The notes under the pieces: generated by a model
The model's database searches: none
What the model was told of the DNA's origin: nothing
The model's input: only the letters and a program-made list of their open reading frames with translations
Program-made: the position numbers and the translations under genes
Assembly (NCBI GenBank): GCA_009845505.1
Contig: VXZL01000472.1
Location: 1-13,697, forward strand
Reading direction: 5' to 3'
DNA from: Candidatus Poribacteria bacterium
GTDB taxonomy: Bacteria > Poribacteria > WGA-4E > WGA-3G
Length of the DNA stretch: 13,697 nucleotides
Shown: in pieces, positions 450 through 13,640 of the stretch
Layout: each line of letters begins with the position of its first letter
Numbering within the stretch: the stretch's first letter is position 1

Positions 450-776
450 ATGGTAGATGAATCGAGACCTTATACAGGTTTAGAAGACCAGCTTATCTTA
501 CGAGATCATCTCGCTGCGGATCGGACTATCCTCGCAAATGAGCGGACTTTCCTCGCGTATATCCGTACGGCGTTGACGCTGTTCGTGGCAGGTTTATCCT
601 TCGTACATCTCAAGATATTCGATTCACACATTGTTGAGGTGATTGGTGTTATTTTCATTTTATTGGGCATTGTTACCTTTTTTCTTGGACTCGTGAGATA
701 CAAGCGGATGCAGGGACTGATTCGTAAAATTAAACAAGAAGAACTGAAAGCATTAGAGGAAAAGAATTCACCATGA
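450..776 (+). CDS. DUF202 family membrane protein (YidH-like), 108 aa
   Basis: The signature of the DUF202 family is visible: LANERTFLAYIRTAL at residues 28-42, leading straight into the first membrane segment (about 38-55). A second membrane segment lies at about 62-82. The C-terminal tail (84-108) is strongly charged with lysines and glutamates and probably lies in the cytoplasm. The family is widespread in bacteria and its biochemical role is not established. A GGGGAAAGAG ribosome binding site precedes the ATG. The stop codon overlaps the ATG of the following dehydrogenase (ATGA at 773-776), so the two are translationally coupled. The length fits the family. The family call is firm; no function can be assigned from sequence. 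Confidence 0.88.
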   Translation: MVDESRPYTGLEDQLILRDHLAADRTILANERTFLAYIRTALTLFVAGLSFVHLKIFDSHIVEVIGVIFILLGIVTFFLGLVRYKRMQGLIRKIKQEELKALEEKNSP

Positions 777-1798
777 GAATAAGAGAAGTTGTTGTAACCG
801 GTCAGAACCAAGTCGAACTACAAACTGCCGATATAGACGCACCAAAGCTCGCTGCCAACGAGCTCCTGATAGACACGGAATATACGTTTATCAGTAGCGG
901 AACGGAACTTGCGAACTACACCGGCAGAGAACCGAAGGTTTTTCAAAAAGGTGAATGGTGTGAATATCCGTGGCGTTCCGGCTATGCGAATGTCGGCATC
1001 GTCCGTGAAGTGGGTGCCGGTGTTACCCGTGCTGCACCGGGGGATCGGGTTTTTACTTACGGACGGCACGCTTCGACAATTTCCTATTCACAGGACCGGT
1101 TGGTCGCGCCTGTCAAGCAAGCCATGGATCCGGCTGTCGTTGCGGCATCTCGGATGGCGGGTGTTGCTATGACTGCGATTGTTGTCGGTGAAATTGGTGC
1201 GAATCCATGGGTTGTTGTTTTTGGATTAGGACTCGTTGGGAATTTGGCATCGCAGATGTTTCGGATTCACGGGTGCCGTGTTATTGGTGTAGACCCGGTA
1301 GCGGAGAGACGCAAACTTGCCGAGCGGTGTGGGCTTGAATGGACTGTCGGCGGTAGTGCTGACGAAGCACAAGCGGAGATTCAGGAGATTACGGACGGTG
1401 ATCTCGGCAATATTACCGTTGATGCTGTCGGGCATAGTGCCGTCGTTATGCAGGCACTTAAGGCAACGGCTAATCACGGGCAAATCATCATCCTCGGTTC
1501 ACCGCGTGTTAGGGTCGATGGCAATCTAACGGAACTGCTCTCCAACACGCATTTGCGGTGGATTACTATTCGTGGTGCATTAGAATGGTGCGTTCCGATG
1601 TATCCTGACATCGGCAACCGGACTTCTCAATGGAGTAAGCAGCAAACCATTTTTGACTGGATGGCACGTGGGCAGCTGCACGTTGCGCCACTAATCTCTC
1701 ACCGACTCAAACCGGAGCAAATTAAGCAGGCTTACGACGGCCTCCTCAATGAACCGAATATATATACAGGGGTTGTTTTAGATTGGACCTCGGACTAA
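773..1798 (+). CDS. Medium-chain dehydrogenase/reductase without zinc ligands (341 aa)
   Basis: A two-domain medium-chain dehydrogenase/reductase: a GroES-like N-terminal half (about 1-120) and a Rossmann domain with GLGLVG at 151-156. An aspartate at 174 (VIGVDP) at the end of the second strand usually favours NAD(H) over NADP(H). The catalytic zinc ligands of classical alcohol dehydrogenases are absent: SSGTEL (41-46) stands where Cys-Gly-x-Asp is expected, and SGYANVG (69-75) stands where Gly-His-Glu is expected. The four-cysteine structural zinc lobe is also missing. These motifs resemble the branch that includes bacteriochlorophyllide a dehydrogenase BchC and many unnamed relatives, but nothing here suggests chlorophyll synthesis. 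It is probably a soluble NAD-dependent oxidoreductase; the substrate is unknown. Its ATG overlaps the DUF202 stop by 4 bases, and the WD40 gene follows after 24 bases, consistent with one transcript. Confidence 0.87.
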   Translation: MRIREVVVTGQNQVELQTADIDAPKLAANELLIDTEYTFISSGTELANYTGREPKVFQKGEWCEYPWRSGYANVGIVREVGAGVTRAAPGDRVFTYGRHASTISYSQDRLVAPVKQAMDPAVVAASRMAGVAMTAIVVGEIGANPWVVVFGLGLVGNLASQMFRIHGCRVIGVDPVAERRKLAERCGLEWTVGGSADEAQAEIQEITDGDLGNITVDAVGHSAVVMQALKATANHGQIIILGSPRVRVDGNLTELLSNTHLRWITIRGALEWCVPMYPDIGNRTSQWSKQQTIFDWMARGQLHVAPLISHRLKPEQIKQAYDGLLNEPNIYTGVVLDWTSD

Positions 1799-1822
1799 AT
1801 TGGTAATCAGGAGAGGAATATT

Positions 1823-2713
1823 ATGGGAAAAACAGCACTGTTCCAGAACTGCATCCAATCTGAATTGCCGCCAGGACTCAAGTCAAGGCTGGATAAGAGG
1901 CAAGTGACAGATATGGCGTTCTCACCCGATGGCACGCGACTCGCTGCCGGTGGCGATGGACGTATCTGGATATACGACGTGGCAAGTGGCGCGCAATTCG
2001 CGATGCTTTCAGGCTATACAGAAAACATCCGCGCATTGGCGTTTGCGCCGAATAACACGCTACTTGCCAGTGGAAGCGAAGACAATACACTCCGACTCTG
2101 GGATACTGCCACGGCGCGTGAAGTATTGACACTTGCTGGGGATTCCAATTTAGTGCAGGCATTGGCGGCTTCGTCACCTGATGGTGTACCGCTACCGAGT
2201 TGGGACCCACGGACAGAGAGGCTCCTTGCTACCTCTAATGAAAATCCTGGGCGTGTGAGAAGTTTAGCCTTTTCACCCGACGGCACAACCCTCGCAAGCG
2301 GTAGTGCCGATGGGCGGATACGATTGTGGGAAGTGGAGACGGGCGCAATCTTGACATCTTTCTCAGTGCATGATGGACTCGTCTTGGCTTTGGCGTTTTC
2401 CGCCAATGGTGAAATTCTCGCAAGTGGCAGTTCGGATACACTCGTTCGGTTGTGGGATTTAGACAGCCATCGTTTGCTCGCCACCTTGAGAGCGCACACT
2501 GATTCAATCAGTGCATTAGCGTTTTCTAATAATGGTGAAATTCTCGCAAGTGGCGGGCGGGATCGCTACCTACAATTATGGGATGCGCATACCAAAGAGC
2601 TTCTGTCAACATTTCCGGTCCAGGAAGGTGTTATTCGGGAGTTAACATTTTCACCGGATGGTGAGAAACTTATGTGTGCGACCCGTGAAGGTTTCCTGCT
2701 TATAAGGGAGTGA
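1823..2713 (+). CDS. WD40 repeat protein, single beta-propeller (296 aa)
   Basis: WD40 repeats fill almost the whole protein. Strand motifs of the type hydrophobic-x-x-LAFSPDG, followed by LASGS.D..(I/L)RLW(D/E), recur about every 42 residues: VTDMAFSPDG, IRALAFAPNN, VRSLAFSPDG, VLALAFSANG, ISALAFSNNG and IRELTFSPDG. Between the second and third clear blades lies a degenerate one (VQALAASSPDG...LLATSN). With it the count is seven, the usual number for a closed propeller. The last blade lacks a terminal WD and may be completed by the N-terminal strand. No signal peptide, membrane segment or fused catalytic domain is seen, so it is probably a cytoplasmic interaction scaffold. A GGAGAGGA ribosome binding site precedes the ATG. 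Start-to-stop it is intact, and it ends 24 bases before the convergent operon. Partner proteins are unknown. Confidence 0.92.
   Translation: MGKTALFQNCIQSELPPGLKSRLDKRQVTDMAFSPDGTRLAAGGDGRIWIYDVASGAQFAMLSGYTENIRALAFAPNNTLLASGSEDNTLRLWDTATAREVLTLAGDSNLVQALAASSPDGVPLPSWDPRTERLLATSNENPGRVRSLAFSPDGTTLASGSADGRIRLWEVETGAILTSFSVHDGLVLALAFSANGEILASGSSDTLVRLWDLDSHRLLATLRAHTDSISALAFSNNGEILASGGRDRYLQLWDAHTKELLSTFPVQEGVIRELTFSPDGEKLMCATREGFLLIRE
2405..2554 (+). repeat. 24-bp direct repeat between adjacent WD40 blades
   Basis: An identical 24-base stretch occurs at 2405-2428 and 2531-2554. The spacing is 126 bases, exactly 42 codons or one blade. Both encode NGEILASG. Such identity at the nucleotide level, beside more diverged blades, suggests a fairly recent blade duplication or gene conversion. 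Confidence 0.7.
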
Positions 2714-2724
2714 CATATACACAC

Positions 2725-2757
2725 GGTAGGCGAGGTTTCATGAGGATTCGGCTATCC
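2725..2757. other. Imperfect hairpin in the convergent junction, sharing one arm with a distant terminator
   Basis: GGTAG+CGA (2725-2729, 2731-2733) can pair with TCG+CTA+CC (2748-2750, 2752-2754, 2756-2757), with one G-G mismatch and one bulged T. The structure straddles the stop codon of the minus-strand transglutaminase gene (2738-2740) and starts 12 bases after the WD40 stop. The first 15 bases (2725-2739) are identical to the left arm of the terminator hairpin at 12389-12403. No long T-run follows on either strand, so termination activity is uncertain. This and the bases beside it are all that separates the two convergent operons. Confidence 0.35.
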
Positions 2758-3625
2758 GTTCACAATCTACTGCCACAGTTAATTCATGCGTGCCGCTGCC
2801 AAAGACAACCCCCTTGAGCGGTGTTACGTCCGCATAGTCTCTCCCCCAAGCTACAGTAATATGTCGATCTGTCGGTATTTGGTTATTTGTTGGATCGAAA
2901 TCTATCCAACCGAATTGCGGAAGATAAACAGAAAACCAGGCATGAGAAGCATCAGCACCCGCTAACGGTTTTTGGTCAGTTGGTGGGTCTGTCTCAATGT
3001 AGCCGCTCACGTAACGCGCAGCGAGTCCTACAGCACGAAGGCATCCAATACCGAGGTGCGCAAAGTCTTGGCAGACCCCACGACGGTGCTTTAAGACATC
3101 TACGAGCGGCGTAGCAATTGTCGTGAAGCCCGGATCATAGGTGAAGTCAGTATAGAGACGAGCGGTTAAATCTTCAACGGCTTCGAGGAGTGGTCGTCCA
3201 TTGGTGAACGATTTTTCAGCGTAAGCATGGAGGTCAGGCATCACTGGAACCATTGAGGACTTGAGGATGTACTGACGCATCTCCAGAATTTCTGGATCTA
3301 AATCCGTGTGTAACTGCCGACGCGCCTCTTCCCAAGATAGGTGTTCCGCGAAATCTCGTTGTTGTTCTCTGCCTTTGACATCTACATGACTGGTAACTGT
3401 TATGGTGAGTTGGTTGTGGGGCTGCTGGATTGTGAAGTAGTAGACGGTGTTTCCGAAAAAGTCTTTGCGTTCTCGACACTCCTTCGGTTCAGGTTCAACG
3501 GTGAATTGGCTGTCGCTGCACTCCTGATAGGCGAAGTTGCGCGGGGTCAGGCGTGCTTCGTTGTAACAGAGGTTCACCGGATGGGTATAACTGTATTCAG
3601 TTTTATGCGTAATTTGATAGTTCAT
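2738..3625 (-). CDS. Transglutaminase-like (papain-fold) protein, last gene of the amidoligase operon (295 aa)
   Basis: A bacterial transglutaminase-like N-terminal beta domain (about 1-90) precedes a transglutaminase core. The catalytic triad is visible: Cys185 in RRGVCQDFAHL, His228 in ASHAWFSVY and Asp244 in IDFDPTNN. In bacteria this fold mostly acts as an amide or peptide hydrolase or an acyl-transferase rather than a cross-linker. In this gene neighbourhood it is predicted to trim or remove a peptide or amino-acid adduct made by the ATP-grasp and glutamine-synthetase-like partners. There is no signal peptide or membrane segment, so it is probably cytoplasmic. Length is normal for the family. 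It is the fifth and last gene of the operon, 43 bases after the 906-aa gene. No Shine-Dalgarno sequence is seen: the space is filled by a three-copy 14-bp tandem repeat. Family call firm, role inferred from context. Confidence 0.9.
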   Translation of the reverse strand: MNYQITHKTEYSYTHPVNLCYNEARLTPRNFAYQECSDSQFTVEPEPKECRERKDFFGNTVYYFTIQQPHNQLTITVTSHVDVKGREQQRDFAEHLSWEEARRQLHTDLDPEILEMRQYILKSSMVPVMPDLHAYAEKSFTNGRPLLEAVEDLTARLYTDFTYDPGFTTIATPLVDVLKHRRGVCQDFAHLGIGCLRAVGLAARYVSGYIETDPPTDQKPLAGADASHAWFSVYLPQFGWIDFDPTNNQIPTDRHITVAWGRDYADVTPLKGVVFGSGTHELTVAVDCERIAESS

Positions 3626-3627
3626 GT

Positions 3628-3669
3628 GAATAGCGAACCGCGAATAGCGAACCGCGAATAGCGAACCGC
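3628..3669. repeat. Perfect 14-bp tandem repeat, three copies, between two operon genes
   Basis: The unit GAATAGCGAACCGC (plus strand) is repeated three times without mismatch at 3628-3641, 3642-3655 and 3656-3669. On the minus strand it fills almost the whole leader between the TAG of the 906-aa gene (3669-3671) and the ATG of the transglutaminase gene (3623-3625). It touches the stop codon at one end and lies 2 bases from the start codon at the other. Each unit can form only a tiny GCG-GTT-CGC hairpin. Copy number could vary between strains and change translation of the downstream gene; that is inference. Confidence 0.9.
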
Positions 3670-6389
3670 TAATTGCTATCTGTTGTAGTTAGCTGCTGCG
3701 GTCTCTGGACATGACTGAAGTAGGTTTGCGTCAGTACGTCAGAAATGTCAACCAATATTTGTGCGAGCCGAACGAGGAGTTTTTCTAACCCTCTCCGTTG
3801 TGTTGTGTGTTCTGAGTGTTCAGCGAGGTCCATCGTATTAGAAAGCTGCAGCTGCGTGAGAGCCTCAAGAGTAAGTTGTTCTTCCTCACTAAGCCGGTAA
3901 CCGAGTTTTTCTCTTGGTAGCGCACGGATTTGTTCTTCAAGTCGTTTGAGTTGATAGAGAAGCGAGCGCGGATTTTCATCATCAAGAAGCAATAACTCAA
4001 GAACTGTCGGAAAGTGAAGTGCCGAACGGTATCGACTCCGATAAGTAATCAGACTTTCGGTGGCAGCGAGGACAGATTCAAGCAGCAGATCTTCAATCCA
4101 CTCATCTTTCACAGCAACAAGACTCGAACGACACAGCACGATGAGAAGGAGTGCCCGTTCAATACGCCGTCCGATATCCAAACTAATCCAACCGATTGTC
4201 TGCGTCATGCTTTCAGCGTTCAACCCACTCAGGGCTGAGAGAAAGATCATGAGTTGATCGAGCGAAGCCAATTCCGCTTCTTGTAACACAAGGTCTGTTA
4301 GTATCTGTGCGCTTGTGTCTCGGTCTTCGGGAATGCTTTTTTCGAGCGTTGTGCATAGATTTTCAATGCCGTTCATTACGCGCCATGTATCCGTCGACCA
4401 CCGGTCCCGGACTGCGTACGCCGCACTTACGAGTGCCTGAAGCGTTGACACTAAACTCCCGCTATTTTCTGTATTGAGCATGATCGAAAGGATCTCGTTT
4501 CCTAACGACTGTTCACTGTTGTTGGCGAAATTCGGGTGAGAGGAGGTTAAGCCGGTTAAGGAACGGAGCATGCTGCGGAGGTAAGTGAGTTCGGAGACTT
4601 CTCTGGCATCTTCGCCCAAGGTTTCAGTAAGGCGTTGGGAGGGTGACACCCGTCCTAAGCGCGAAGTTTCTAAACCCATCTTGCCCATTTTCGCTTTATC
4701 GAGCATAATCCGAAGTAGCCGCGCTTGCCCCTCAGCGCGTTCTGCATAGCGTCCGACCCAGAATAGGTTTTCAGCGGCGCGACTCGATAGTCCGACAGAC
4801 GCGCTCGCGGTTTGTATGCGTCCGGTTCGCTGTTGCCATAAACTGATGTGGGGTTCTGGTTCAGGCGCGAGGACCCAAGTATCTTTACTAACGCCACCAT
4901 CTCGAATCGAAATTGTCAGTTCCGCTTTTTCACCTGCACATCGCGTGAGTCCGCCCGGCATCACGGCGTATCCCTCTTTTTCCCGAAATAAAAAGTTACG
5001 CAGAATCGCGCGCCGCGGTTCGAGTTTACCGTCAATCAGGGAAGGTGTCGTAGAGAGATGGACATGCTCCTGCCCGACATAGAGATGCGGTTCAGCGTTA
5101 ATTCGATCACGGAGTGCGTCGAGTTCAACACTACTGAGTTTCATTCCAAACAAGGAGCGTCCGCCACGTTGACGATGGATCGGTTTGATGACCAATTTTC
5201 TAAGGTTCGTTAACACATACGCTTGTTGTTTGGGGTGTCCGCACCACCACGTAGCAACAGAGGGGAGTCGTAGGTCTTCACCTATTAGCCGTTTTGAGAT
5301 ATTTGGTAGAAACGGCATCAAACCCGGATTTTCCAAAACGCCGCTGCCCGGAGGATTTATCACAATTACATTTCCCCGTCGAATGACTTCCAGCAATCCA
5401 GCAACACCGAGTCGTGAATCTTGTCGGAGTTCCAACGGGTCACAGAAGGTATCATCCACCCTGCGCAGAATAATATCAACGGGCCGTAAGCCGTCAATTG
5501 ATTTCAACCAGACCCGTCCGTCCCACACCGTCAAATCATCACCTTGCACCAAAGTGTAGCCGAGGTAACTCGCGAGGTAGGCGTGCTCAAAATAAGTTTC
5601 ATTAAGTGGACCAGGCGTTAGCACGACAACGTGTGGGTTGTCTATCTGGCGCGAGGCAATACGTGTGGCGTTTTCCAGTTGCCCGCGTTGATATTGTAAG
5701 GGCATGTCCAGTATACTGTTCTGTAGTGAACGAAAAAAGAAGGAGAGTCGATGAACACCGACTTCGCCGAAAAGATGGGGTAGTGCGCGGGCAAGCGCGG
5801 TTCGGTTTTCCAGTGCGTAGCCTGCCCCCGATGGTGCCTGTGTGCGATCACTGAGTACCCACATTTTACCATCCGGTCCTCTCGCTAAATCGGCGGCGTA
5901 ATTCAAGAGAAACGGAAGTCCAGGGGCAGTAAGCCCGGCACATGCCCGTAGGAAACCCGCATGGGCATAGACCACTTCTGGTGGTATCAATCCCTCCTTA
6001 ATTAAAGTGCGTTCCCCGTAGAGATCCATCAAAATTAGGTTTAGGAGTTCCGCACGTTGTCTGAGTCCAACAGAGATGGTCTCCCAGTCAGCATTCGAGA
6101 TAATGAGCGGAATGGGATCCAACGCCCACGGGCGATGTCCGTGTTGTTCGCCGTGTACCACATAAGTGACCCCATTCTCACGAAGCAGACGTTGGACCTC
6201 TTCGTGCCGAGATTCCATCTCCGTGAGTCCGAGGGTGTCGAGTGCCTGCATGAAGGTGTGCCAGTGTGGATTGATGGATTTATCTCGGTTTAGCATCTCA
6301 TCAATCTGTTCACCGTGAGGAGCATCGGCGCGTTTCGTGCTATAACTGCCCTTAATCACCTTCCAATTTGTTGTGTCTGTTCGTTGCAT
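3669..6389 (-). CDS. Circularly permuted ATP-grasp protein fused to a C-terminal alpha-E domain (906 aa)
   Basis: Residues about 30-520 are a circularly permuted type-2 ATP-grasp unit (former DUF404/DUF407). It has an APSGAGYALENR block (185-196), VVVLTPGPLNETYFEHAYL (254-272), VINPPGSGVLENP (343-355), MPGGLTR (477-483) and GGVSKDTWVL (498-507). Residues about 533-890 are an alpha-E helical domain with its ER signatures at 550-551 (RYAERAEG) and 744-745 (GRRIERAL). Compared with the 480-aa paralogue in the same operon, the supposed ATP/metal motifs are changed: SDRTQAPSG instead of EDNLGCPSG, and IKPIHRQRGGRSLFG instead of VKEANQSGGYGM. This may be a diverged ligase or a non-catalytic partner. 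The ATG at 6389 is kept because the upstream HGEQIDEML stretch matches where the family normally begins. A start at Met32 would cut it, and neither start has a clear ribosome binding site. Fourth gene of the operon. Confidence 0.9.
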   Translation of the reverse strand: MQRTDTTNWKVIKGSYSTKRADAPHGEQIDEMLNRDKSINPHWHTFMQALDTLGLTEMESRHEEVQRLLRENGVTYVVHGEQHGHRPWALDPIPLIISNADWETISVGLRQRAELLNLILMDLYGERTLIKEGLIPPEVVYAHAGFLRACAGLTAPGLPFLLNYAADLARGPDGKMWVLSDRTQAPSGAGYALENRTALARALPHLFGEVGVHRLSFFFRSLQNSILDMPLQYQRGQLENATRIASRQIDNPHVVVLTPGPLNETYFEHAYLASYLGYTLVQGDDLTVWDGRVWLKSIDGLRPVDIILRRVDDTFCDPLELRQDSRLGVAGLLEVIRRGNVIVINPPGSGVLENPGLMPFLPNISKRLIGEDLRLPSVATWWCGHPKQQAYVLTNLRKLVIKPIHRQRGGRSLFGMKLSSVELDALRDRINAEPHLYVGQEHVHLSTTPSLIDGKLEPRRAILRNFLFREKEGYAVMPGGLTRCAGEKAELTISIRDGGVSKDTWVLAPEPEPHISLWQQRTGRIQTASASVGLSSRAAENLFWVGRYAERAEGQARLLRIMLDKAKMGKMGLETSRLGRVSPSQRLTETLGEDAREVSELTYLRSMLRSLTGLTSSHPNFANNSEQSLGNEILSIMLNTENSGSLVSTLQALVSAAYAVRDRWSTDTWRVMNGIENLCTTLEKSIPEDRDTSAQILTDLVLQEAELASLDQLMIFLSALSGLNAESMTQTIGWISLDIGRRIERALLLIVLCRSSLVAVKDEWIEDLLLESVLAATESLITYRSRYRSALHFPTVLELLLLDDENPRSLLYQLKRLEEQIRALPREKLGYRLSEEEQLTLEALTQLQLSNTMDLAEHSEHTTQRRGLEKLLVRLAQILVDISDVLTQTYFSHVQRPQQLTTTDSN

Positions 6390-6460
6390 CTTGTTTTCTG
6401 CTTAGTTTAGATAGGTGTTGACGACTTTCCCACGGCTAAAAACCAATCGCTAACCACCAT
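6390..6460 (-). other. 71-base operon gap without recognisable signal
   Basis: This is the widest gap inside the five-gene operon, between the DUF2126 fusion and the 906-aa gene. I see no Shine-Dalgarno sequence in front of the ATG at 6389 (the preceding bases are A-rich), no convincing hairpin with a T-run and no properly spaced -35/-10 pair. The sequence TTAGCGATTGG on the minus strand loosely recalls the 14-bp repeat unit at the next junction (TTAGCGGTTCG), which may be chance. Confidence 0.3.
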
Positions 6461-9400
6461 TCAACCTGAAGAAGTCCTACGAAGATCCAATGTATACGGA
6501 TATTCAGCGTTTGTCTCTTCTGGCGGCACAGCCATCGGACCCGGAAACGTGCCTTCCGTCAGAAAGTATCCAGTGGTTGTTCCCGACGGTTGCGGTTGAA
6601 TAACGCCCGGTGTGTGTCCATCTGCGCCAAAACGACTTGTCCGGCGCCCCTCTGCTTCGTAAGCGTTAACTGGGAAAGTATCGTAATGTCTTCCACCCGG
6701 ATGTGAGACGTGATAGGTACAACCGCCGATTGCCCTACCGTTCCATGTGTCGATGATGTCAAATACGAGTGGAGAATGTATACCGATCGTCGGGTGCAAT
6801 GCTGATGGCGGTTGCCACGCTCGGTAACGGACCCCGCCAACGTATTCTCCGTGCGTTCCCGTATTGTGGAGAATTAAACGCCGTCCGTTGCATGTAACAA
6901 TATATCGCGAGTCCGTCAGTCCACGGACCTTCACCTGCACCCGTTCAACAGAAGAATCGACGAAACGAGAGGTCCCTGCCCGTGTCACTTCCTCACCTAA
7001 CACGTGCCACGGTTCAATTGCCATCCGTAATTCCAGTTCAATATCTTGGACGTTTACAACTCCCAATTTTGGGAATCGGAATTCAAAGAACGGGTCAAGC
7101 CACGTCATCTCAAATGGATACCCCGCTTCTTGAAGTTCGCTAACCACTTCTTGTATATCGGCGCGAACGTAGTGGTGGAGCATAAATCGGTCATGTAATT
7201 CCGTACCCCAGCGCACGAGTCTACCTTTATAGGGGGTCTTCCAAAATTTGGCGATGAGTGTCCGAATCAGAAGCATCTGAACGATGCTCATCCGTGCGTG
7301 TGGTGGCATCTCAAAAGCGCGCATCTCCAATAATCCAAGCCGTCCGCTCGCTGCGTCTGGCGAGTAGAGTTTATCAATGCAGAACTCGGCACGATGCGTG
7401 TTCCCTGTAAGGTCTACCATGAGGTGTCGCAGCAACCGGTCAATTAGCCAAGCCGGTGTCTCTTCCGTTTCACCGTTGGATGCTTCGGGTATCTGCTCAA
7501 AAGCGACCTCAAGTTCATAAAGTTGCTCATCGCGACCCTCGTCTACACGCGGTGCCTGACTCGTCGGACCGATGAAAGTGCTGGAGAAGAGATACGATAA
7601 ACCCGGGTGGTGCTGCCAATATGTGACGAGACTCCGTAACAGATCGGGTCGTCGTAAGAGTGGGCTATCAGCAGGCGTCCGACCGCCGACGATAATGTGG
7701 TTACCGCCACCGGTGCCGGTGTGTCTGCCGTCTAACATGAATTTCTCAGCACTCAGTCCTGCCAATCGTGCTTGCGCGTAAAGCGTTGTGGTGTTGTGGA
7801 CGAGTTCGTTCCAATTTTCTGCAGGGTGGATGTTTACCTCAATCACGCCCGGATCGGGTGTCACACTCAACGACTGAATTCGCCAATCGTGCGGGACCTC
7901 ATAGCCTTCGATAATCACCGGCATATTTAGGGCTTCAGCGGTTGCTTCCGTCGCTTCAAGGAGTCCCAAGTAGTGTTCTAAATGCGTTAGCGGCGGCATA
8001 AATATGTGCAATCGCCCGTCACGCGGTTCAACGCAGAGTGCCGTTTGAAAAATCGTCTCTTCTTCCTCGTCTTTCGGCATTGGTATGCTTTGTGAGTTTG
8101 TTTGCACCGATGCGTCTAAATGCTTCTCGCGTGGTTCAAAAGGATCGCGCTCATAGACCTCTTCTCGCTCTTCAGGCGGCACCCACTCCATCGATTCCAA
8201 AGGTAGACGGAGTCCTATCGGTGAATCGCCGGGAATTAAGAACATGCGTCCATTCTTGAAGTTCCACACACAGCTTTCCCACTTCTCCTCTGCAAGATTC
8301 CATCGTATCGGTAACGCGTAGCCAATCGGTTCACCGAGGGTTTCTGTTTGTAGCAGCTCGGCGAGTCGATGGCGTTCGGATGCTTCTTTAAAGTCAAAGT
8401 CGAGTGGATCAATATTGGTAGGAAGTCTGTCCTCTGTCCAGAGAAAAAAGAGGGCATCTTCATAAGCCGGTATCATTGAGTCTGGTGTAATTTTCAATAG
8501 TTCCGTAAGGTGGCGCGTCCATCTTTCAGCCTCTTGGACACCGAACCCATAATCCTTGTGAGGTTCAGTGAGCAGTTTGTCGTTCTTCCAGACAGGCACC
8601 CCGTCTTTCCGCCAAAAGCAGCCGAACTTCCAACGCGGTAACGGTTCACCCGGATACCACTTCCCCTGTCCGTGATAGAGGGCACCCCCGGGTCCGAAAC
8701 TATCCCGCAAGCGTCGCAAGAGTCCTGCGCCTAACGCTCTTTTTTTTCGGCTGTCCGCTTCCGTGTCCCATTCTGGACTCTCTGTATCGTCAATGGATAC
8801 GAAGGTAGGTTCGCCTCCCATTGTCAACCGAATGTCGTGCTGGATTATATCTGCGTCCACTTGTTGACCGAGGGCATTAATATCTGCCCACTGTGTTTCC
8901 GTATAGGGTTTTGTCACGCGCGGGTCTTCGTGGATACGTTGGACGGTGTTGGTATAAGTAAATTCTGTTTCGCACGGGTCTGTATAGCCGGTAACGGGGG
9001 CAGCGCTCACTGGATCGGCTACGCACGCTAACGGAATATGACCCTCACCGGCAAGTAAACCCGATGTTGGATCCAGCCCTATCCACCCTGCGCCGGGGGC
9101 GTAGACTTCACACCACGCATGTAGGTCGGTAAAGTCTTGCGGCGGACCGGTGGGTCCATCAACAGGTTTCTGATCAGCGACGAGTTGGACGAGGTAACCT
9201 GAAACGAAACGAGCCGCTAAACCGAGATGCCGTAAAATCTGAACGAGGAGCCACCCTGTATCTCGACAGGAGCCAATCTGTTTTTCTAACGTCTCCTCAC
9301 AAGACTGCACGCCGGGTTCCATGCGGATTGTGTATTTTATCTTTTGCGAGAGCGACCTGTTGATGTCAACGAGAAAGTCAATGAGTTTCTCCTGCGTCCG

Positions 9401-9805
9401 AGGAATATCTGCCAGTAGTGCTGTAAGGAGGGGGCCGTTTTCTTTGATTTCAAGAAAAGGCGTTAGTTCTTCTTTAAGTTGTGCTTCATAGTCAAACGGG
9501 TAGTGCTCAGCATTCGATTCGAGGAAAAAATCGAACGGGTTGATAACGGTCATATCCGCCACAAGGTCTACTTCAATAGACAGGGCACGCGTGGGTTCGA
9601 GGAAAACGACGCGCGCTTGGTAATTCCCGAACGGGTCTTGCTGCCAGTTGATGAAGTGATTCTCCGGTTCAATCTTGAGCGAGTAGGCTTCAATCGGTGT
9701 ACGGCAGTGGACTGCAGGTCTCAATCGAAAAACATGTGGAGACAAATTAACAAGCCTGTCGTAACGATAGAGTGATTTGTGGTTGATAGCGACACGGATT
9801 GCCAT
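6461..9805 (-). CDS. Transglutaminase-DUF2126 fusion, putative glutamine-synthetase-like amidoligase (1114 aa)
   Basis: Residues about 1-90 form the bacterial transglutaminase N-terminal beta domain. Residues about 150-260 form the transglutaminase core with triad Cys180 (IGSCRDTGW), His229 (DLHAWCEVY) and Asp245 (IGLDPTSG). From about residue 320 to the end lies a DUF2126 region, listed in domain databases as a putative amidoligase and predicted to have a glutamine-synthetase-like fold. Visible motifs include LTMGGEPTFVS (327-337), IEVNIHPAENW (655-665), the glycine-rich HTGTGGGNHIIVGG (695-708), NTHRAEF (802-808) and LLEMRAFEMPPH (825-836). About 1100 residues is the usual size for this fusion. 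One polypeptide therefore joins a predicted amide-bond-making and an amide-bond-breaking domain. The ATG has an AGGAAGGAG site 10 bases upstream and follows the alpha-E stop by 30 bases. Third gene of the operon; no export signal. Confidence 0.93.
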   Translation of the reverse strand: MAIRVAINHKSLYRYDRLVNLSPHVFRLRPAVHCRTPIEAYSLKIEPENHFINWQQDPFGNYQARVVFLEPTRALSIEVDLVADMTVINPFDFFLESNAEHYPFDYEAQLKEELTPFLEIKENGPLLTALLADIPRTQEKLIDFLVDINRSLSQKIKYTIRMEPGVQSCEETLEKQIGSCRDTGWLLVQILRHLGLAARFVSGYLVQLVADQKPVDGPTGPPQDFTDLHAWCEVYAPGAGWIGLDPTSGLLAGEGHIPLACVADPVSAAPVTGYTDPCETEFTYTNTVQRIHEDPRVTKPYTETQWADINALGQQVDADIIQHDIRLTMGGEPTFVSIDDTESPEWDTEADSRKKRALGAGLLRRLRDSFGPGGALYHGQGKWYPGEPLPRWKFGCFWRKDGVPVWKNDKLLTEPHKDYGFGVQEAERWTRHLTELLKITPDSMIPAYEDALFFLWTEDRLPTNIDPLDFDFKEASERHRLAELLQTETLGEPIGYALPIRWNLAEEKWESCVWNFKNGRMFLIPGDSPIGLRLPLESMEWVPPEEREEVYERDPFEPREKHLDASVQTNSQSIPMPKDEEEETIFQTALCVEPRDGRLHIFMPPLTHLEHYLGLLEATEATAEALNMPVIIEGYEVPHDWRIQSLSVTPDPGVIEVNIHPAENWNELVHNTTTLYAQARLAGLSAEKFMLDGRHTGTGGGNHIIVGGRTPADSPLLRRPDLLRSLVTYWQHHPGLSYLFSSTFIGPTSQAPRVDEGRDEQLYELEVAFEQIPEASNGETEETPAWLIDRLLRHLMVDLTGNTHRAEFCIDKLYSPDAASGRLGLLEMRAFEMPPHARMSIVQMLLIRTLIAKFWKTPYKGRLVRWGTELHDRFMLHHYVRADIQEVVSELQEAGYPFEMTWLDPFFEFRFPKLGVVNVQDIELELRMAIEPWHVLGEEVTRAGTSRFVDSSVERVQVKVRGLTDSRYIVTCNGRRLILHNTGTHGEYVGGVRYRAWQPPSALHPTIGIHSPLVFDIIDTWNGRAIGGCTYHVSHPGGRHYDTFPVNAYEAEGRRTSRFGADGHTPGVIQPQPSGTTTGYFLTEGTFPGPMAVPPEETNAEYPYTLDLRRTSSG

Positions 9806-9815
9806 ATCTGTCGTG

Positions 9816-9824
9816 CTCCTTCCT
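9816..9824 (-). promoter_or_regulatory. Ribosome binding site of the DUF2126 fusion gene
   Basis: AGGAAGGAG on the minus strand, 10 bases before the ATG at 9805. It fixes the start and contrasts with the two following operon genes, which lack such a site. Confidence 0.7.
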
Positions 9825-9835
9825 GCAAACTTCCC

Positions 9836-10819
9836 CTACAATAGCGGCTGTTCCTCAGTAGCAGATTGTCCGTTGACAGGTCGCAAGGCGAAGAAGGTCT
9901 TGTGGATATCTTCACCGACTAAGTTGAGCTTGGTTTGGAATGCGTCCAGAAACTCGTGCAAACCGCTGGATAGCACCTGTTTGACTTGGGCGTACGCAAA
10001 TTCTGCTCGGAGCTGCCCCAACCGCTGCTCTGCTGAATTGGAGAACGTTTCCAACGGGGTTCCAGAGATGGCGTGCAATGATTCTTCTGCCTTGGAGAGA
10101 CAATAGAGCACTGAGCGCGGAAATTCACGGTCTAACAAGAGAAAAGCAACAACATCGTCTGGGGAGATGAGTCCGTAAGTACGGCGGTACATCTCGAAAC
10201 CGCTGGCGGAGTGGAGCAAAGCCCCCCACTGAATATCGTCGAATGGGGTGTTCACATCCCAGATAGATGGCAGTAGGATAAAATATTTAACGTCAACGAT
10301 TCTTGATGTTTTATCAGCACGCTCAATAAGCCGTCCCAATTGACTGAAATGCCATCCTTCGCTATGCGACATGATATTATCTGTTAGTCCCATAAAGAGA
10401 TGCGATGCGAGTTTGATTTCTCTGAAGAACTCATGCGGTTCTGCCATTGCCCATTTTTCCGAAGTGTTGGTGACTAACAGATAGGCATCGTTTAACTGTT
10501 CCCACATCTCCGATGAGATATTTTCCCGTATTGACCGAGCGTTTTCACGCCCAGCCCGCAGGCAAGAGACGATTGAATTCGGATTTTCAGTGTCAAATGC
10601 CAGAAATCTAATCACCGCTTCGCGGGAGGCATCGCCGTAGCGTTCAGCAAACACCTCGTCGTCGCCTGTCGTGGCAACGAGCGGTTCCCACTGTGCTTGT
10701 ATACCGACTGGCATGTCGAGAATAAGGTGCAAGTTGACGTCAACAAATCGGGCAACGTTTTCGGCGCGTTCGATATAGCGGCTCATCCAATAAATTGATT
10801 CTGCGACGCGACTGAGCAT
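9836..10819 (-). CDS. Alpha-E domain protein, stand-alone (327 aa)
   Basis: The whole protein is one alpha-E domain (former DUF403), an all-helical family named for a conserved Glu-Arg motif. That motif is seen at 17-18 (SRYIERAENVARF) and again at 166-167 (GRLIERADKTSRI). The helical LDREFPRSVLYCL block near the C-terminal third is also typical. The family is almost always encoded beside circularly permuted ATP-grasp proteins and is thought to be their functional partner; its biochemical activity is not established. Its ribosome binding site GGAGGGAG overlaps the stop region of the upstream ATP-grasp gene (the gap is only 9 bases), so the two are translationally coupled and likely made in equal amounts. 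The same pair reappears fused in the 906-aa protein downstream, which supports a physical complex. No membrane segment. Confidence 0.93.
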   Translation of the reverse strand: MLSRVAESIYWMSRYIERAENVARFVDVNLHLILDMPVGIQAQWEPLVATTGDDEVFAERYGDASREAVIRFLAFDTENPNSIVSCLRAGRENARSIRENISSEMWEQLNDAYLLVTNTSEKWAMAEPHEFFREIKLASHLFMGLTDNIMSHSEGWHFSQLGRLIERADKTSRIVDVKYFILLPSIWDVNTPFDDIQWGALLHSASGFEMYRRTYGLISPDDVVAFLLLDREFPRSVLYCLSKAEESLHAISGTPLETFSNSAEQRLGQLRAEFAYAQVKQVLSSGLHEFLDAFQTKLNLVGEDIHKTFFALRPVNGQSATEEQPLL

Positions 10820-10821
10820 AG

Positions 10822-10829
10822 CTCCCTCC
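10822..10829 (-). promoter_or_regulatory. Ribosome binding site of the alpha-E gene, overlapping the previous stop
   Basis: GGAGGGAG on the minus strand lies just before the ATG at 10819, with the GGAGG core 5 bases away. It touches the TAG of the ATP-grasp gene (10829-10831), so ribosomes finishing that gene can restart directly. Confidence 0.7.
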
Positions 10830-12271
10830 TATTCTGGACCTGACAAGACCCACGTATCCTTACTACCGCCCCCTTGGGACGAGTTGACGACCAACGAGCC
10901 TTTCTTGAGAGCGACCCGCGTTAATCCGCCCGGTAGCACATAGATGTCTTCGCCGTAAAGGATAAATGGGCGCAGGTCAACGTGTCGTCCTTCGAGGTGG
11001 TCCTCAATAAGCACCGGGACGCGTGAAAGCGAGAGCGTCGGTTGCGCGATGTAGTTGCGCGGATTGTTTTTAATGCGGTCAGCAAACTCTTCCTGCTCTG
11101 CCCGAGTCGAGTGTGGACCAATCAGCATCCCATACCCGCCAGACTGGTTGGCTTCCTTCACAACGAGTTCGTCGAGATGCTCCAAAACGTATTTCCGATC
11201 TGAATCCTCCCAGCACATATAGGTCGGGACATTTGGGACGATAATATCTTCGCCGAGATAGTACTTGATAATCTCTGGTACGAACGAGCAGACAACTTTG
11301 TCGTCAGCGACACAGGTGCCGGGCGCATTGACGAGCGCGATGCGTCCGGCTTTGTAGACATCCATTAAACCCGGAACACCGAGCATTGATTCAGATTTGA
11401 AGGCTTTCGGGTCGAGAAAATCGTCGTTGATTCGCCGGTAGAGGACATCGACGCGTTCAAATCCTTTTGTGGTTCGAGCGTGAACGAACCCGTCCATCAC
11501 GACGAGATCGCGTCCCTCGACTAATTCGACCCCCATCTGTTGTGCGAGAAAGGAGTGCTCGAAGTACGCAGAATTATAGATACCTGGTGTAAGAAGGGCA
11601 ACTGTAGGGGACGGCACTCTATCGGTTACGAGGTAGCGAAGCATATTTAGCAGGTGACTCGGATAATCCTCCACAGGTTGAATCTGCGACATCCCGAAGA
11701 TCTGTGGAAACGTCCGTTTCATTAACTGCCGATTTTCCACCACATAAGAAACCCCGGATGGACAACCGAGGTTATCTTCCAAGACGTAGAATTGCCCATC
11801 GCTATCGCGCACTAAGTCTGTGCCAGTGATATGACACCAGATACCGCGTGGCGGGTCTAAACCGATGCACGGCTTCAGGTATCGTTCTGATGAAAGCACG
11901 ACATCTGAGGGAACAACCCCGTCTTTGAGGATTTTCTGGTCGTGATAAACGTCGTCGATGAATAGGTTGAGTGCGTGGATACGCTGTTTGAGCCCGCGTT
12001 CTATCCATTCCCATTCAGTGGCATCGATAATCCGTGGGATAAGATCAAAGGGAAAGATTTTTTCGATCCCTTGTTCATCAGCGTAGACATTGAAGGTTAT
12101 GCCCATCCGAAGCAAGGCGTATTCAGCGGCAATTTGACGACGATTGAGTTCGCCATCAGGAAAACTTTCAATCCGCTCCATCAACATCTGAGCGGCAGGA
12201 CGCGCACTCCCGTCTGGCGCGAACATCTCGTCATAGAATTCTTCAGTGTCGTATCCATCAAATCCTGTCAT
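10829..12271 (-). CDS. Circularly permuted type-2 ATP-grasp protein, first gene of the operon (480 aa)
   Basis: A full-length, single-domain member of the circularly permuted ATP-grasp family (former DUF404/DUF407, COG2308), predicted to activate a carboxylate as acyl-phosphate and form an amide bond. The N-terminus starts with the typical FYDEMF (12-17), followed by the FPFDLIPRII block (73-82). The presumed nucleotide and metal sites are well kept: VLEDNLGCPSGVSYVVENR (163-181), ALVNAPGT (312-319), VVKEANQSGGYGM (370-382), DLRPFILYG (432-440) and GGGSKDTWVL (467-476). It therefore looks like the catalytically competent copy, unlike the diverged paralogue later in the operon. The ATG at 12271 has a strong AGAGGAGG site 8 bases upstream. 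It leads a five-gene minus-strand operon running down to 2738. The substrate is unknown; peptide or amino-acid ligation is the comparative-genomics prediction. Confidence 0.94.
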   Translation of the reverse strand: MTGFDGYDTEEFYDEMFAPDGSARPAAQMLMERIESFPDGELNRRQIAAEYALLRMGITFNVYADEQGIEKIFPFDLIPRIIDATEWEWIERGLKQRIHALNLFIDDVYHDQKILKDGVVPSDVVLSSERYLKPCIGLDPPRGIWCHITGTDLVRDSDGQFYVLEDNLGCPSGVSYVVENRQLMKRTFPQIFGMSQIQPVEDYPSHLLNMLRYLVTDRVPSPTVALLTPGIYNSAYFEHSFLAQQMGVELVEGRDLVVMDGFVHARTTKGFERVDVLYRRINDDFLDPKAFKSESMLGVPGLMDVYKAGRIALVNAPGTCVADDKVVCSFVPEIIKYYLGEDIIVPNVPTYMCWEDSDRKYVLEHLDELVVKEANQSGGYGMLIGPHSTRAEQEEFADRIKNNPRNYIAQPTLSLSRVPVLIEDHLEGRHVDLRPFILYGEDIYVLPGGLTRVALKKGSLVVNSSQGGGSKDTWVLSGPE

Positions 12272-12279
12272 TGCAGGAG

Positions 12280-12287
12280 CCTCCTCT
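12280..12287 (-). promoter_or_regulatory. Strong ribosome binding site of the operon, embedded in a palindrome
   Basis: AGAGGAGG on the minus strand, 8 bases before the ATG at 12271. The GGAGG core is immediately followed by its own complement (AGGAG-C-CTCCT at 12275-12285 on the plus strand). A small hairpin, or pairing between two transcripts, could partly hide it. The site is clear; a regulatory effect is speculation. Confidence 0.6.
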
Positions 12288-12293
12288 ACCTTG

Positions 12294-12309
12294 ATGCTAC
12301 CTCAAGCAT
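12294..12309 (-). promoter_or_regulatory. Short inverted repeat in the operon leader
   Basis: ATGCT (12294-12298) and AGCAT (12305-12309) form a perfect 5-bp inverted repeat with a 6-base spacer. It lies between the candidate promoter and the ribosome binding site, so it could be a small leader hairpin or a protein site. It is short enough to be chance. Confidence 0.25.
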
Positions 12310-12326
12310 ATTATTTATCTGTGATT

Positions 12327-12356
12327 ATCCTATCACACTTTGGCGTATTTGTCCAA
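12327..12356 (-). promoter_or_regulatory. Candidate sigma-70-type promoter of the amidoligase operon
   Basis: Read on the minus strand: TTGGAC (12351-12356), an 18-base spacer, then TAGGAT (12327-12332) preceded by TG one base away, an extended -10 arrangement. Transcription would start near 12320, about 50 bases before the ATG and just downstream of the dioxygenase terminator. The -10 departs from consensus at two positions and the sigma factor of this organism is unknown, so this is a candidate only. Confidence 0.38.
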
Positions 12357-12381
12357 ACTTTAGTTATTGTCAGATTCTCTC

Positions 12382-12437
12382 AAAAATAGGTAGGCGAGGT
12401 TTCGTTTGGGAAACCCCCAAGCAAAAACACCTCGCCT
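12382..12437 (-). terminator. Rho-independent terminator of the dioxygenase gene
   Basis: On the minus strand AGGCGAGGT (12429-12437) pairs perfectly with ACCTCGCCT (12392-12400), and a TATTTTT run (12382-12388) follows 3 bases after the stem. The loop holds a second, nested 7-bp stem (12404-12410 with 12416-12422, one G-U pair), giving a two-storey hairpin. It begins 39 bases after the dioxygenase stop. No T-run follows on the plus strand, so it acts in one direction. It separates the dioxygenase transcript from the operon promoter. Confidence 0.72.
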
Positions 12438-12476
12438 GTCACAATGTATCAATAATCCTGAATTCACTGCCTGGAT

Positions 12477-13640
12477 TTAGACAGCCGTTTGAAAGGCTTC
12501 CCATGCGTCGCCCGCTGCTGCGGCTTGACGTTCCAACTCCGTACACCACCCGGCGACTTTCCCGGATTTAATCTGTCGGATATCAAAGCCAGCATATCTA
12601 TCCTCAAGCGTGTCTCCGAGTTTCTGGGTTTCTGCCCACCGGTCCCACGCTGTCTGCATCCAGGCGTGTGGCAGTGCCTCCCGGACGGCGGGATCGAGTT
12701 GCCACGCGCTTCGTGCATCCGCAACCGATGGCTCACCAGCAGGTTCACCTGACCATTTCGACCAACCGATTGAGAGTGTGTTACGCTCACGTTCAGGCAC
12801 AGTGTGTCCTGTGTGAATGTTGTTGCCATTGCGGATGAGTGCCTCTCCTGGCTTGAGCCGAATAGCGACCTGATCCGGCAACGGATCCTTCCCATTCCAA
12901 CTCGGTGTATATGGAACGCCTTGATCCTTCATCGCCTGTGGGAGTAGGACATCATGCTCAAACGGTGTGCGCCATCGGTGATGGCTCCCCGGAATCAGTT
13001 CGTGGCATTCGTCGTCCGTGAGTGCCAGAAACATGCTCACGCCGTTCCGTTCCTTAATTCGCTTTTCGTTGCTTTCTTGAATCTCTTTCCAGCGAATCCG
13101 TTCTACTTCTTCGGAATAGTCTTCAGGTGTGTTTCCTCGGATTTCCCGTTGTGAGAAATAACCTGCGCCGTCCCCCCACCATGTCACGTCTCTATGCCAA
13201 CTGGGTCCGTTTTCGTTCCGTCGAGGGTTTGCCCACAGCAACATACCACTAAATGCCATGTCCTCAGGTTGAAGCCCGTGACACCAAGATGCAACAAAGT
13301 CGAGGAAATCCGAAGAGCCGTGGAACTCGGCGAAACTCGACTCACCGAAAGCGGGATGGATAAGTCCTCGGATTGCCCACGGTTCATCTTCCGCGGCGCG
13401 GTGGACATAACCCTTTGAGCAGTCGATGGTGTCGTAGACGTTTTCCGGGGCAGTTGCCTCGGTAACACGCCGACCCGCCTCTCGAAGGATAGGAATCCAA
13501 GGGTTATCGACAAAGTCGTTGATAATAACAAAACCGTGCTCCTTCAGGTATGCCAACCTTTCAGGTGTGGCACCCGGAGCCGAAAGTTCAGGTTGGAAAT
13601 CTGCAAACGCTGTGGCGCGATAAGTCTTTTTTGTGCTCAT
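12477..13640 (-). CDS. Phytanoyl-CoA dioxygenase (PhyH) family Fe(II)/2-oxoglutarate oxygenase (387 aa)
   Basis: A double-stranded beta-helix oxygenase of the PhyH type that would hydroxylate a substrate using Fe(II), oxygen and 2-oxoglutarate. Visible landmarks are YLKEHGFVIINDFV (31-44) at the start of the fold, the metal pair His149/Asp151 in PSWHRDVTWW, IPGSHHRW (216-223) and GEALIRNGNNIHTGH (265-279). The latter supplies the distal metal histidine (276 or 279), with Arg284 or Arg286 to hold 2-oxoglutarate. About 125 residues separate the metal Asp from the distal His, more than in human PHYH. The extra length is a charged stretch at about 164-200. The C-terminal 90 residues are an extension I do not recognise. 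GGAGGAG (13646-13652) lies 5 bases before the ATG. It has its own terminator, so it is probably expressed separately from the amidoligase operon. Substrate unknown; PhyH members act on lipids, small metabolites and antibiotics. Confidence 0.9.
   Translation of the reverse strand: MSTKKTYRATAFADFQPELSAPGATPERLAYLKEHGFVIINDFVDNPWIPILREAGRRVTEATAPENVYDTIDCSKGYVHRAAEDEPWAIRGLIHPAFGESSFAEFHGSSDFLDFVASWCHGLQPEDMAFSGMLLWANPRRNENGPSWHRDVTWWGDGAGYFSQREIRGNTPEDYSEEVERIRWKEIQESNEKRIKERNGVSMFLALTDDECHELIPGSHHRWRTPFEHDVLLPQAMKDQGVPYTPSWNGKDPLPDQVAIRLKPGEALIRNGNNIHTGHTVPERERNTLSIGWSKWSGEPAGEPSVADARSAWQLDPAVREALPHAWMQTAWDRWAETQKLGDTLEDRYAGFDIRQIKSGKVAGWCTELERQAAAAGDAWEAFQTAV

Follow-up and report, generated by a model that had tools for sequence, protein, structure and literature searches.

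Gene sets joining an ATP-grasp ligase, an alpha-E protein and transglutaminase-like proteins were reportedly predicted by Iyer et al. in 2009 to form a peptide-tagging system, and the abstract of that study reportedly has the same domain set, including a ligase like glutamine synthetase (GS), as the five-gene operon considered here, which lies on a contig of Candidatus Poribacteria (VXZL01000472.1; the whole stretch of 13,697 nucleotides that was analysed is called the window). The initial annotation of this stretch had referred to the same prediction, which is also cited in passages of PMC6376114 and PMC5666114. Among described systems, the Anbu operon (Pseudomonas putida PP_2685-2688, Yersinia bercovieri) encodes the same ATP-grasp, alpha-E and transglutaminase-like families and is linked to nitrogen limitation in the literature, whereas Anbu was not found in the phylum of the window, which adds DUF2126 and an ATP-grasp/alpha-E fusion. 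A Burkholderia cenocepacia cluster (I35_5080-83), listed in passages of PMC5491218 with DUF404/407, DUF403, a transglutaminase-like protein and a large transglutaminase-like protein, resembles the window but is described there as NtrC-dependent, whereas no sigma-54 site was found for the window operon. In a second B. cenocepacia strain the genes run ATP-grasp, alpha-E, a transglutaminase-containing frame, the DUF2126 protein, the fusion and a further transglutaminase-containing frame, so that the large I35_5080-83 protein is probably the DUF2126 protein. Passages of PMC8407117 and PMC8665760 added no function for the gene set, and the Rlo/RimK-type operons, which combine a RimK-akin ATP-grasp with an inactive transmembrane transglutaminase (passages of PMC12239564), were set aside as a different system.

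Five minus-strand genes with gaps of 9 to 71 bases had been annotated in the window, and the list of open reading frames (ORFs) agreed with their coordinates and order. Gene 1 (10829-12271, 480 amino acids [aa]; Pfam CP_ATPgrasp_2, 550.8 bits) is a stand-alone circularly permuted (CP) type-2 ATP-grasp, followed by gene 2 (9836-10819, 327 aa; Alpha-E, 352 bits), a stand-alone alpha-E protein, gene 3 (6461-9805, 1114 aa; Transglut_core, 57 bits, and DUF2126, 1309 bits), gene 4 (3669-6389, 906 aa; CP_ATPgrasp_2, 488 bits, and Alpha-E, 217 bits), a fusion, and gene 5 (2738-3625, 295 aa; Bact_transglu_N and Transglut_core, 73 bits), a stand-alone transglutaminase-like protein. The gaps in transcription order are 9, 30, 71 and 43 bases, and from this spacing and the conservation of gene order we infer, as the annotation did, a single transcription unit. 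The Pfam scores exclude chance matches, and the five families recur in colinear order elsewhere. The window holds the clustered stand-alone CP ATP-grasp, alpha-E, transglutaminase-DUF2126, fusion and transglutaminase genes of the known DUF2126-type ATP-grasp/alpha-E/transglutaminase operons, and it is close to certain that it is a member of that kind and not new. The finding is otherwise ordinary in kind, and the parts worth specialist attention are a conserved, very probably dead twin of the ATP-grasp ligase and the promoter pattern of related operons. With confidence about evenly balanced, we propose that the operon runs a cytosolic amide-ligase/amidase cycle on a small amine or non-ribosomal peptide under nitrogen limitation.

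Intact and degenerate ligase domains

Gene 1 is predicted to be an active ATP-grasp ligase. In an alignment of ATP-grasp domains that took in those of the window (39 stand-alone, 51 fused; stand-alone or fused fragments of 440 aa or less, from L041, L063 and L064, were omitted), residues D152/E165/N167, which we take to be the ATP-grasp metal site, were kept in all 39 stand-alone copies, as were the loop residues G378/G379/Y380/G381. The E-x-N motif E165-D166-N167 (11771-11779, minus strand), presumably metal-binding, was likewise invariant in 39/39. At E 0.01, gene 1 had a single relative of solved structure, PDB 3n6x (570 bits), whose label of putative glutathionylspermidine synthase is an annotation and not a test. 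The AlphaFold2 model of gene 2 was all-helical (pLDDT 79.9), with no confident match in the PDB; stand-alone ATP-grasp and alpha-E genes were adjacent in 39/39 loci showing both, and gene 2 is the probable partner of gene 1.

The ATP-grasp domain of gene 4, judged by its residues, is very probably a catalytically dead pseudoenzyme. Even with D accepted for E, the metal triad was complete in 0/51 fused copies, in which E165 was kept in 2/51, D152 in 30/51 and the N167 position was occupied by R in 45/51, H in 5/51 and N in 0/51. The window copy has D167, S180 and R182 at the triad positions, and its degenerate metal site S180-D181-R182 (5844-5852, minus strand) carries S in place of E and R in place of N. 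The loop residues G378, Y380 and G381 were each retained in 1/51 fused copies, and D432 and N463 in 0/51; the triad D, E-x-N and glycine loop of an active ligase are thus present together in gene 1 and not in gene 4. The fused group has its own signature (N463 replaced by S in 44/51 and S465 by Q in 39/51) and, because K372 was retained in 46/51 and R279, R280, D283 and D287 in 49-51/51, selection acts on the fused domain, which may still be able to bind a ligand. As it still scores 488 bits, its degenerate site is hidden from Pfam scoring.

A FastTree phylogeny placed all stand-alone and all fused copies on the two sides of a single split (support 1.0), alike for the ATP-grasp (39 + 51) and alpha-E (34 + 49) domains, the latter alignment being limited to stand-alone ORFs between 291 and 359 aa and to fused ORFs >820 aa. 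The alpha-E domain of gene 4 lies at 3717-4790 (minus strand; PF04168, 220 bits). The simplest reading of the split would be one old duplication, fusion and then loss of catalysis. Given the triad loss and the tree, the operon would hold a GS-fold ligase and two ATP-grasps, of which one is intact and the other a conserved pseudo-ATP-grasp. The initial annotation had counted two kinds of amide-forming and two amide-cleaving domains; the cysteine-hydrolase-like domains, with intact catalytic residues, stood, whereas counting the fusion as an amide-forming enzyme found no support, since no fused copy has a complete triad. No report of a pseudo-ATP-grasp was found in the literature, a weak sign of novelty as most subscription papers and Iyer et al. 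2009 lay outside the search, and the feature may or may not already be noted in the latter.

The DUF2126 domain of gene 3 (6479-8980, minus strand) is predicted from its structural model to be a GS-fold ligase. The model shares the fold of the GS catalytic domain and of GS-fold amine ligases (GmaS, naphthylamine GS, GlnA) at ~8-13 per cent identity over the structural match, with no GS type preferred among the hits. Residues E332, E656, N658, H703, R805, E807, E827 and R829 were invariant in 83/83 sequences, and of these E332, E656, H703, R805, E827 and R829 are candidate GS catalytic residues, lying in GS order within GS-like motifs. The transglutaminase-like domain of the same protein (9068-9790, minus strand) keeps the triad C180/H229/D245 in 83/83 sequences, and gene 5, a relative of PDB 3isr, has C185/H228/D244 (C185 kept in 60/61 sequences, H228 and D244 in 61/61), such that both domains hold a Cys-His-Asp triad. 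In the proposed cycle, the cysteine enzymes of genes 3 and 5 would cleave rather than form amides. Some public records of transglutaminase-DUF2126 proteins (P0100, P0115) carry the name 'IMP dehydrogenase', seemingly a misannotation that has spread.

Distribution and gene neighbourhood

Each of the three proteins searched had at least 8000 relatives. Neighbourhoods were compared for 82 loci, consisting of two plasmid loci and 80 loci from named genomes, the latter being the best 80 of 576 in an alignment led by a Desulfuromonas protein, so that the sample favours close relatives. By record titles, the 80 loci belong to Proteobacteria, Desulfuromonas relatives, Bacteroidota, Verrucomicrobia, Anaerolineae, Nitrospirota, Poribacteria and others, and gene 3 of the window was 59-80 per cent identical to relatives from many phyla. 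Among the matches listed, Candidatus Poribacteria supplied the closest named relatives of the DUF2126 protein (98 per cent) and of alpha-E (93 per cent). Synechococcus elongatus, included as a control genome, gave matches to DUF2126, CP ATP-grasp and alpha-E. DUF2126 occurred in 43/84 Poribacteria genomes from 3/21 genera, and alpha-E was matched in 43/43 of the genomes with DUF2126 compared to 7/41 of those without (two of the seven weak and partial). Two Poribacteria with no DUF2126 match (G027:C183, G053:C65) carry stand-alone and fused alpha-E genes close together, with the DUF2126 gene seemingly missing between them.

Around the DUF2126 genes, the five families were colinear on one strand with no extra copy in 9/82 loci (including L065, with two opposite-strand ORFs between two genes, and L071, where the last gene is cut at the contig end), and some of the remaining loci had rearranged gene blocks. 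The fusion and transglutaminase genes were adjacent in 47/49 loci (the other two cut at the contig end), and the DUF2126 gene adjoined either this block or the ATP-grasp/alpha-E block. DUF2126 was alone of the five families in the fetched stretch of 21/82 loci, some of these stretches being short. Alpha-E was matched in 80/80 genomes (in G104 only through an 88-aa fragment at the edge of a contig); with rows read by eye, a full stand-alone copy was present in 75, a fused copy in a frame of at least 780 aa in 64 and both in 60, or both in 65/80 when contig-edge pieces count. The whole gene 3 protein matched 41/72,556 plasmid records. In 25 of these the match spanned at least 80 per cent of the protein, and in the others it covered about the first quarter only, the transglutaminase part. 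One of the nine colinear sets, a complete five-gene operon on an Enterobacter roggenkampii plasmid (L120, NZ_CP116251.1; IncFII replicon), has insertion sequences on both sides, suggesting horizontal movement, and arsC nearby.

The initial annotation had suggested looking for a conserved small substrate gene across genomes. Clustering of neighbours (1130 ORFs of at least 50 aa from the 82 loci, overlapping ORFs thinned, clusters in at least five loci listed) found none common across lineages, nor any shared precursor-like ORF of the graspetide or RiPP (ribosomally synthesised and post-translationally modified peptide) type. The clusters comprised Anbu, a ParA-like gene, a 421-aa gene, citrate synthase, kinases and others, and the sole short family was a 127-aa DksA-looking ORF in 5 loci at scattered offsets. 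At the operon locus no Pup-type tag gene was found either: no gap within the operon exceeds 71 bases, and the leader on the operon strand holds ORFs of 20-36 aa only, besides the genes and a 143-aa frame inside the upstream gene. The 421-aa protein (L075:10147-11412 and 13 other loci), found no more than ~215 bases from an operon gene in 14 proteobacterial loci, had no Pfam, NCBIfam or PDB match, looks VOC/dioxygenase-like by eye in its C-terminal part and is a possible accessory. In 5 Bacteroidota loci (L101:5172-6233, L084, L089, L109, L110), a gene for a zinc-ribbon and putative zinc metallopeptidase (Peptidase_Mx) lies no further than ~610 bases from an operon gene.

The draft host genome (G000) spans 4.78 Mb in 691 contigs, with a completeness of 86 per cent, and has Alpha-E and CP ATP-grasp solely within this operon, two copies each. 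Upstream, a 387-aa protein (12477-13640, minus strand), weakly PhyH-like (20.7 bits; cut-off 22), was matched in 25/40 Poribacteria upstream stretches (ten listed at 89.6-95.1 per cent) and is likely conserved synteny only. On the opposite strand, outside the operon, 450-2713 (plus strand) encodes a DUF202 protein, a zinc-type dehydrogenase and a 296-aa WD40 repeat protein. In the window a tRNA scan found none, and Rfam gave no match at gathering score. A known anti-phage defence system and a phage origin were both rejected, as the five proteins matched no PADLOC model at E 0.001 and the gene 3 protein no phage record at E 1e-10.

Promoters and nitrogen limitation

Where at least 80 bases of space lay upstream, genes were scored against a 16-base -24/-12 pattern (score of at least 10 of 12). 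Sigma-54-type sites in Proteobacteria preceded 17/23 ATP-grasp genes (shuffled expectation 0.78) and 17/35 DUF2126 genes (shuffled expectation 0.62), with 1/32 for other operon-family genes (expected 0.96) and 14/275 for background genes of the same loci (expected 5.4). Published passages record changes of -6.0 to -9.4 fold for B. cenocepacia I35_5080-83 in an ntrC mutant (PMC5491218), raised P. putida PP2685, PP2686 and PP2687 under nitrogen limitation (PMC3325844), higher PP_2685 and PP_2688 on nitrate than ammonium (PMC8050072) and an association of DUF403/404/407 with urea domains in marine metagenomes (PMC3597751). On the Acidithiobacillus caldus megaplasmid mpAca1.1 (L164), a 28-kb stretch combines ATP-grasp, alpha-E and two Anbu genes (one annotated as a peptidase, one as a hypothetical protein) with ntrC, glnL, glnA, amt and two PII genes, as well as an APC permease, an aliphatic amidase and insertion sequences. 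The two domains of the DUF2126 protein occur there as separate pieces ~1.4 kb apart, and no separate ATP-grasp/alpha-E fusion was found in the stretch. This nitrogen island is a single case, and no report on it was found in the literature search. Taken together, the proteobacterial sites, the published NtrC and nitrogen-limitation data and the island indicate nitrogen scarcity for the relatives, whose operons are likely switched on under it; a nitrogen role in Poribacteria would be an extrapolation from these.

Several observations weigh against that step. The proteobacterial enrichment (P value = 1e-13) is optimistic because many of the genomes are related, and sites were not enriched in non-proteobacterial loci (2/40 vs 4/159). 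Only 12/39 Poribacteria leaders, from related genomes, had a sigma-54-type site (~1.7 expected), and one of the 12 was a 10-of-12 match just 39 bases from the start; nine were perfect and 115-141 bases before the start codon. The window itself had no -24/-12 site in the 205 and 350 bases upstream. In P. putida the nitrogen data come from the Anbu operon rather than the DUF2126 one, a reporter carrying the PP_2685 promoter alone was nitrogen-agnostic (passages of PMC8050072), and expression of Anbu and its operon is given in passages of PMC5666114 as unchanged under various other conditions, the genes being non-essential without stress. Nitrogen scarcity, moreover, tells when and not what, and no activity or substrate report for the gene set was found in the literature, in keeping with the initial annotation, which had regarded product and target as not established.

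The operon leader (12272-12476, minus strand) has a weak sigma-70-like candidate at 12355-12327 (9 of 12). The leader of a genome of the same species likewise lacked a sigma-54 site, and no sign of sigma-54 control of the window operon was found, although the host genome has a sigma-54 gene. Within one Poribacteria genus (leaders of L122-L161), some leaders carry a perfect sigma-54 site and others a TTGAC-type sequence at about the same place, which makes a switch of promoter type within the genus possible.

Proposed function and alternatives

The proposed cycle draws on computed gene content, residues kept and lost, co-occurrence, the GS-like fold of the model and the promoter-site enrichment in Proteobacteria. 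Gene 1 ATP-grasp and gene 2 alpha-E would form one ligase unit, and gene 3 would supply a second, GS-fold ligase joined to a cysteine amidase, so that amide formation and cleavage may reside in one protein. Gene 4 would be an old fused duplicate of the gene 1/gene 2 pair that has lost catalysis and persists as a subunit holding substrate or exerting regulation, and gene 5 would be a second amidase. Under nitrogen scarcity, the whole would likely serve to couple nitrogen carried by a small amine or non-ribosomal peptide, to store it and to set it free again. The same logic applies in glutathionylspermidine synthetase/amidase and in the gamma-glutamylation of amines. By analogy, the former pairs an ATP-dependent amide ligase with a cysteine amidase on the same bond type, although its amidase belongs to a different family than the transglutaminase-like domains. 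A cytosolic location is suggested by the lack of obvious signal peptides in the operon proteins on inspection by eye, and the proteins may form a complex. Ligation and cleavage in turn, the conjugation-deconjugation cycle of the initial annotation, are still surmised, and the strongest hint at function, nitrogen scarcity in relatives, did not feature in that annotation. A narrower version is put forward tentatively, in which the living and dead ligases are a pair, the ancient fused copy having been kept across phyla as a subunit that binds substrate or regulates, within an amide synthetase/amidase complex that responds to nitrogen and acts on an unmapped nitrogen route.

The main rival, protein tagging, supposes that proteins receive a peptide or amino acid from the ligases and lose it again to the transglutaminase-like enzymes, with Anbu, where present, processing the tagged proteins; this view, reportedly that of Iyer et al. 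2009, is repeated in passages of PMC6376114 and PMC5666114, and we consider it unlikely. Anbu lay in the fetched stretch of 20/82 loci, no more than 120 bases from an operon gene in 18 of these and 1.1 kb and 9.2 kb away in the other two, and in 27/50 DUF2126 genomes searched (of 80, 16 with Anbu already in the locus and 14 without were left out), 5 of those at just 24-30 per cent identity; the Anbu query matches solved Anbu structures, but not the Pfam proteasome model at E 0.001. It was found, however, in 0/84 Poribacteria genomes, among none of the window's annotated ORFs of at least 100 aa and not in the other 23/50 DUF2126 genomes, the loci encode no tag gene of at least 50 aa, and Y. bercovieri Anbu had neither peptidase activity nor specific interaction with its operon partners in the tests described in passages of PMC6376114. 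The host genome, further, already has two 20S proteasome alpha/beta-like gene pairs (C136/L006, C443/L007) with a PafA/Dop-like gene beside or near each (named by eye), apparently a duplicated Pup-proteasome set. HslV occurs with HslU on contig C203 (L005; named by eye).

The operon might instead make a dedicated natural product or cofactor with no tie to nitrogen economy, the nitrogen signal then reflecting lineage-specific regulation. This would fit the two intact ligase types in one operon and the absence of sigma-54 sites from the window and most non-proteobacterial leaders, but the neighbour clusters hold no precursor gene, transporter or tailoring enzyme common across lineages, and the broad distribution and the identity of gene 3 across phyla are more like core metabolism, leaving this quite unlikely. 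The gene 4 ATP-grasp might also be active with altered chemistry, Arg at the old Asn and the group-specific residues forming a new site, which would be compatible with the other readings. Its conserved signature and retained K372 and other residues point to selection and probably to binding of something, yet the triad and glycine-loop losses, extending to D432 and N463, make activity improbable.

The gene set is common in bacteria, with at least 8000 relatives per protein, yet no substrate report was found. Under the proposed amide-ligase/amidase cycle, knowing which ligases are probably live and the likely condition of induction makes the function testable, as a new amide would be sought in nitrogen-starved cells.

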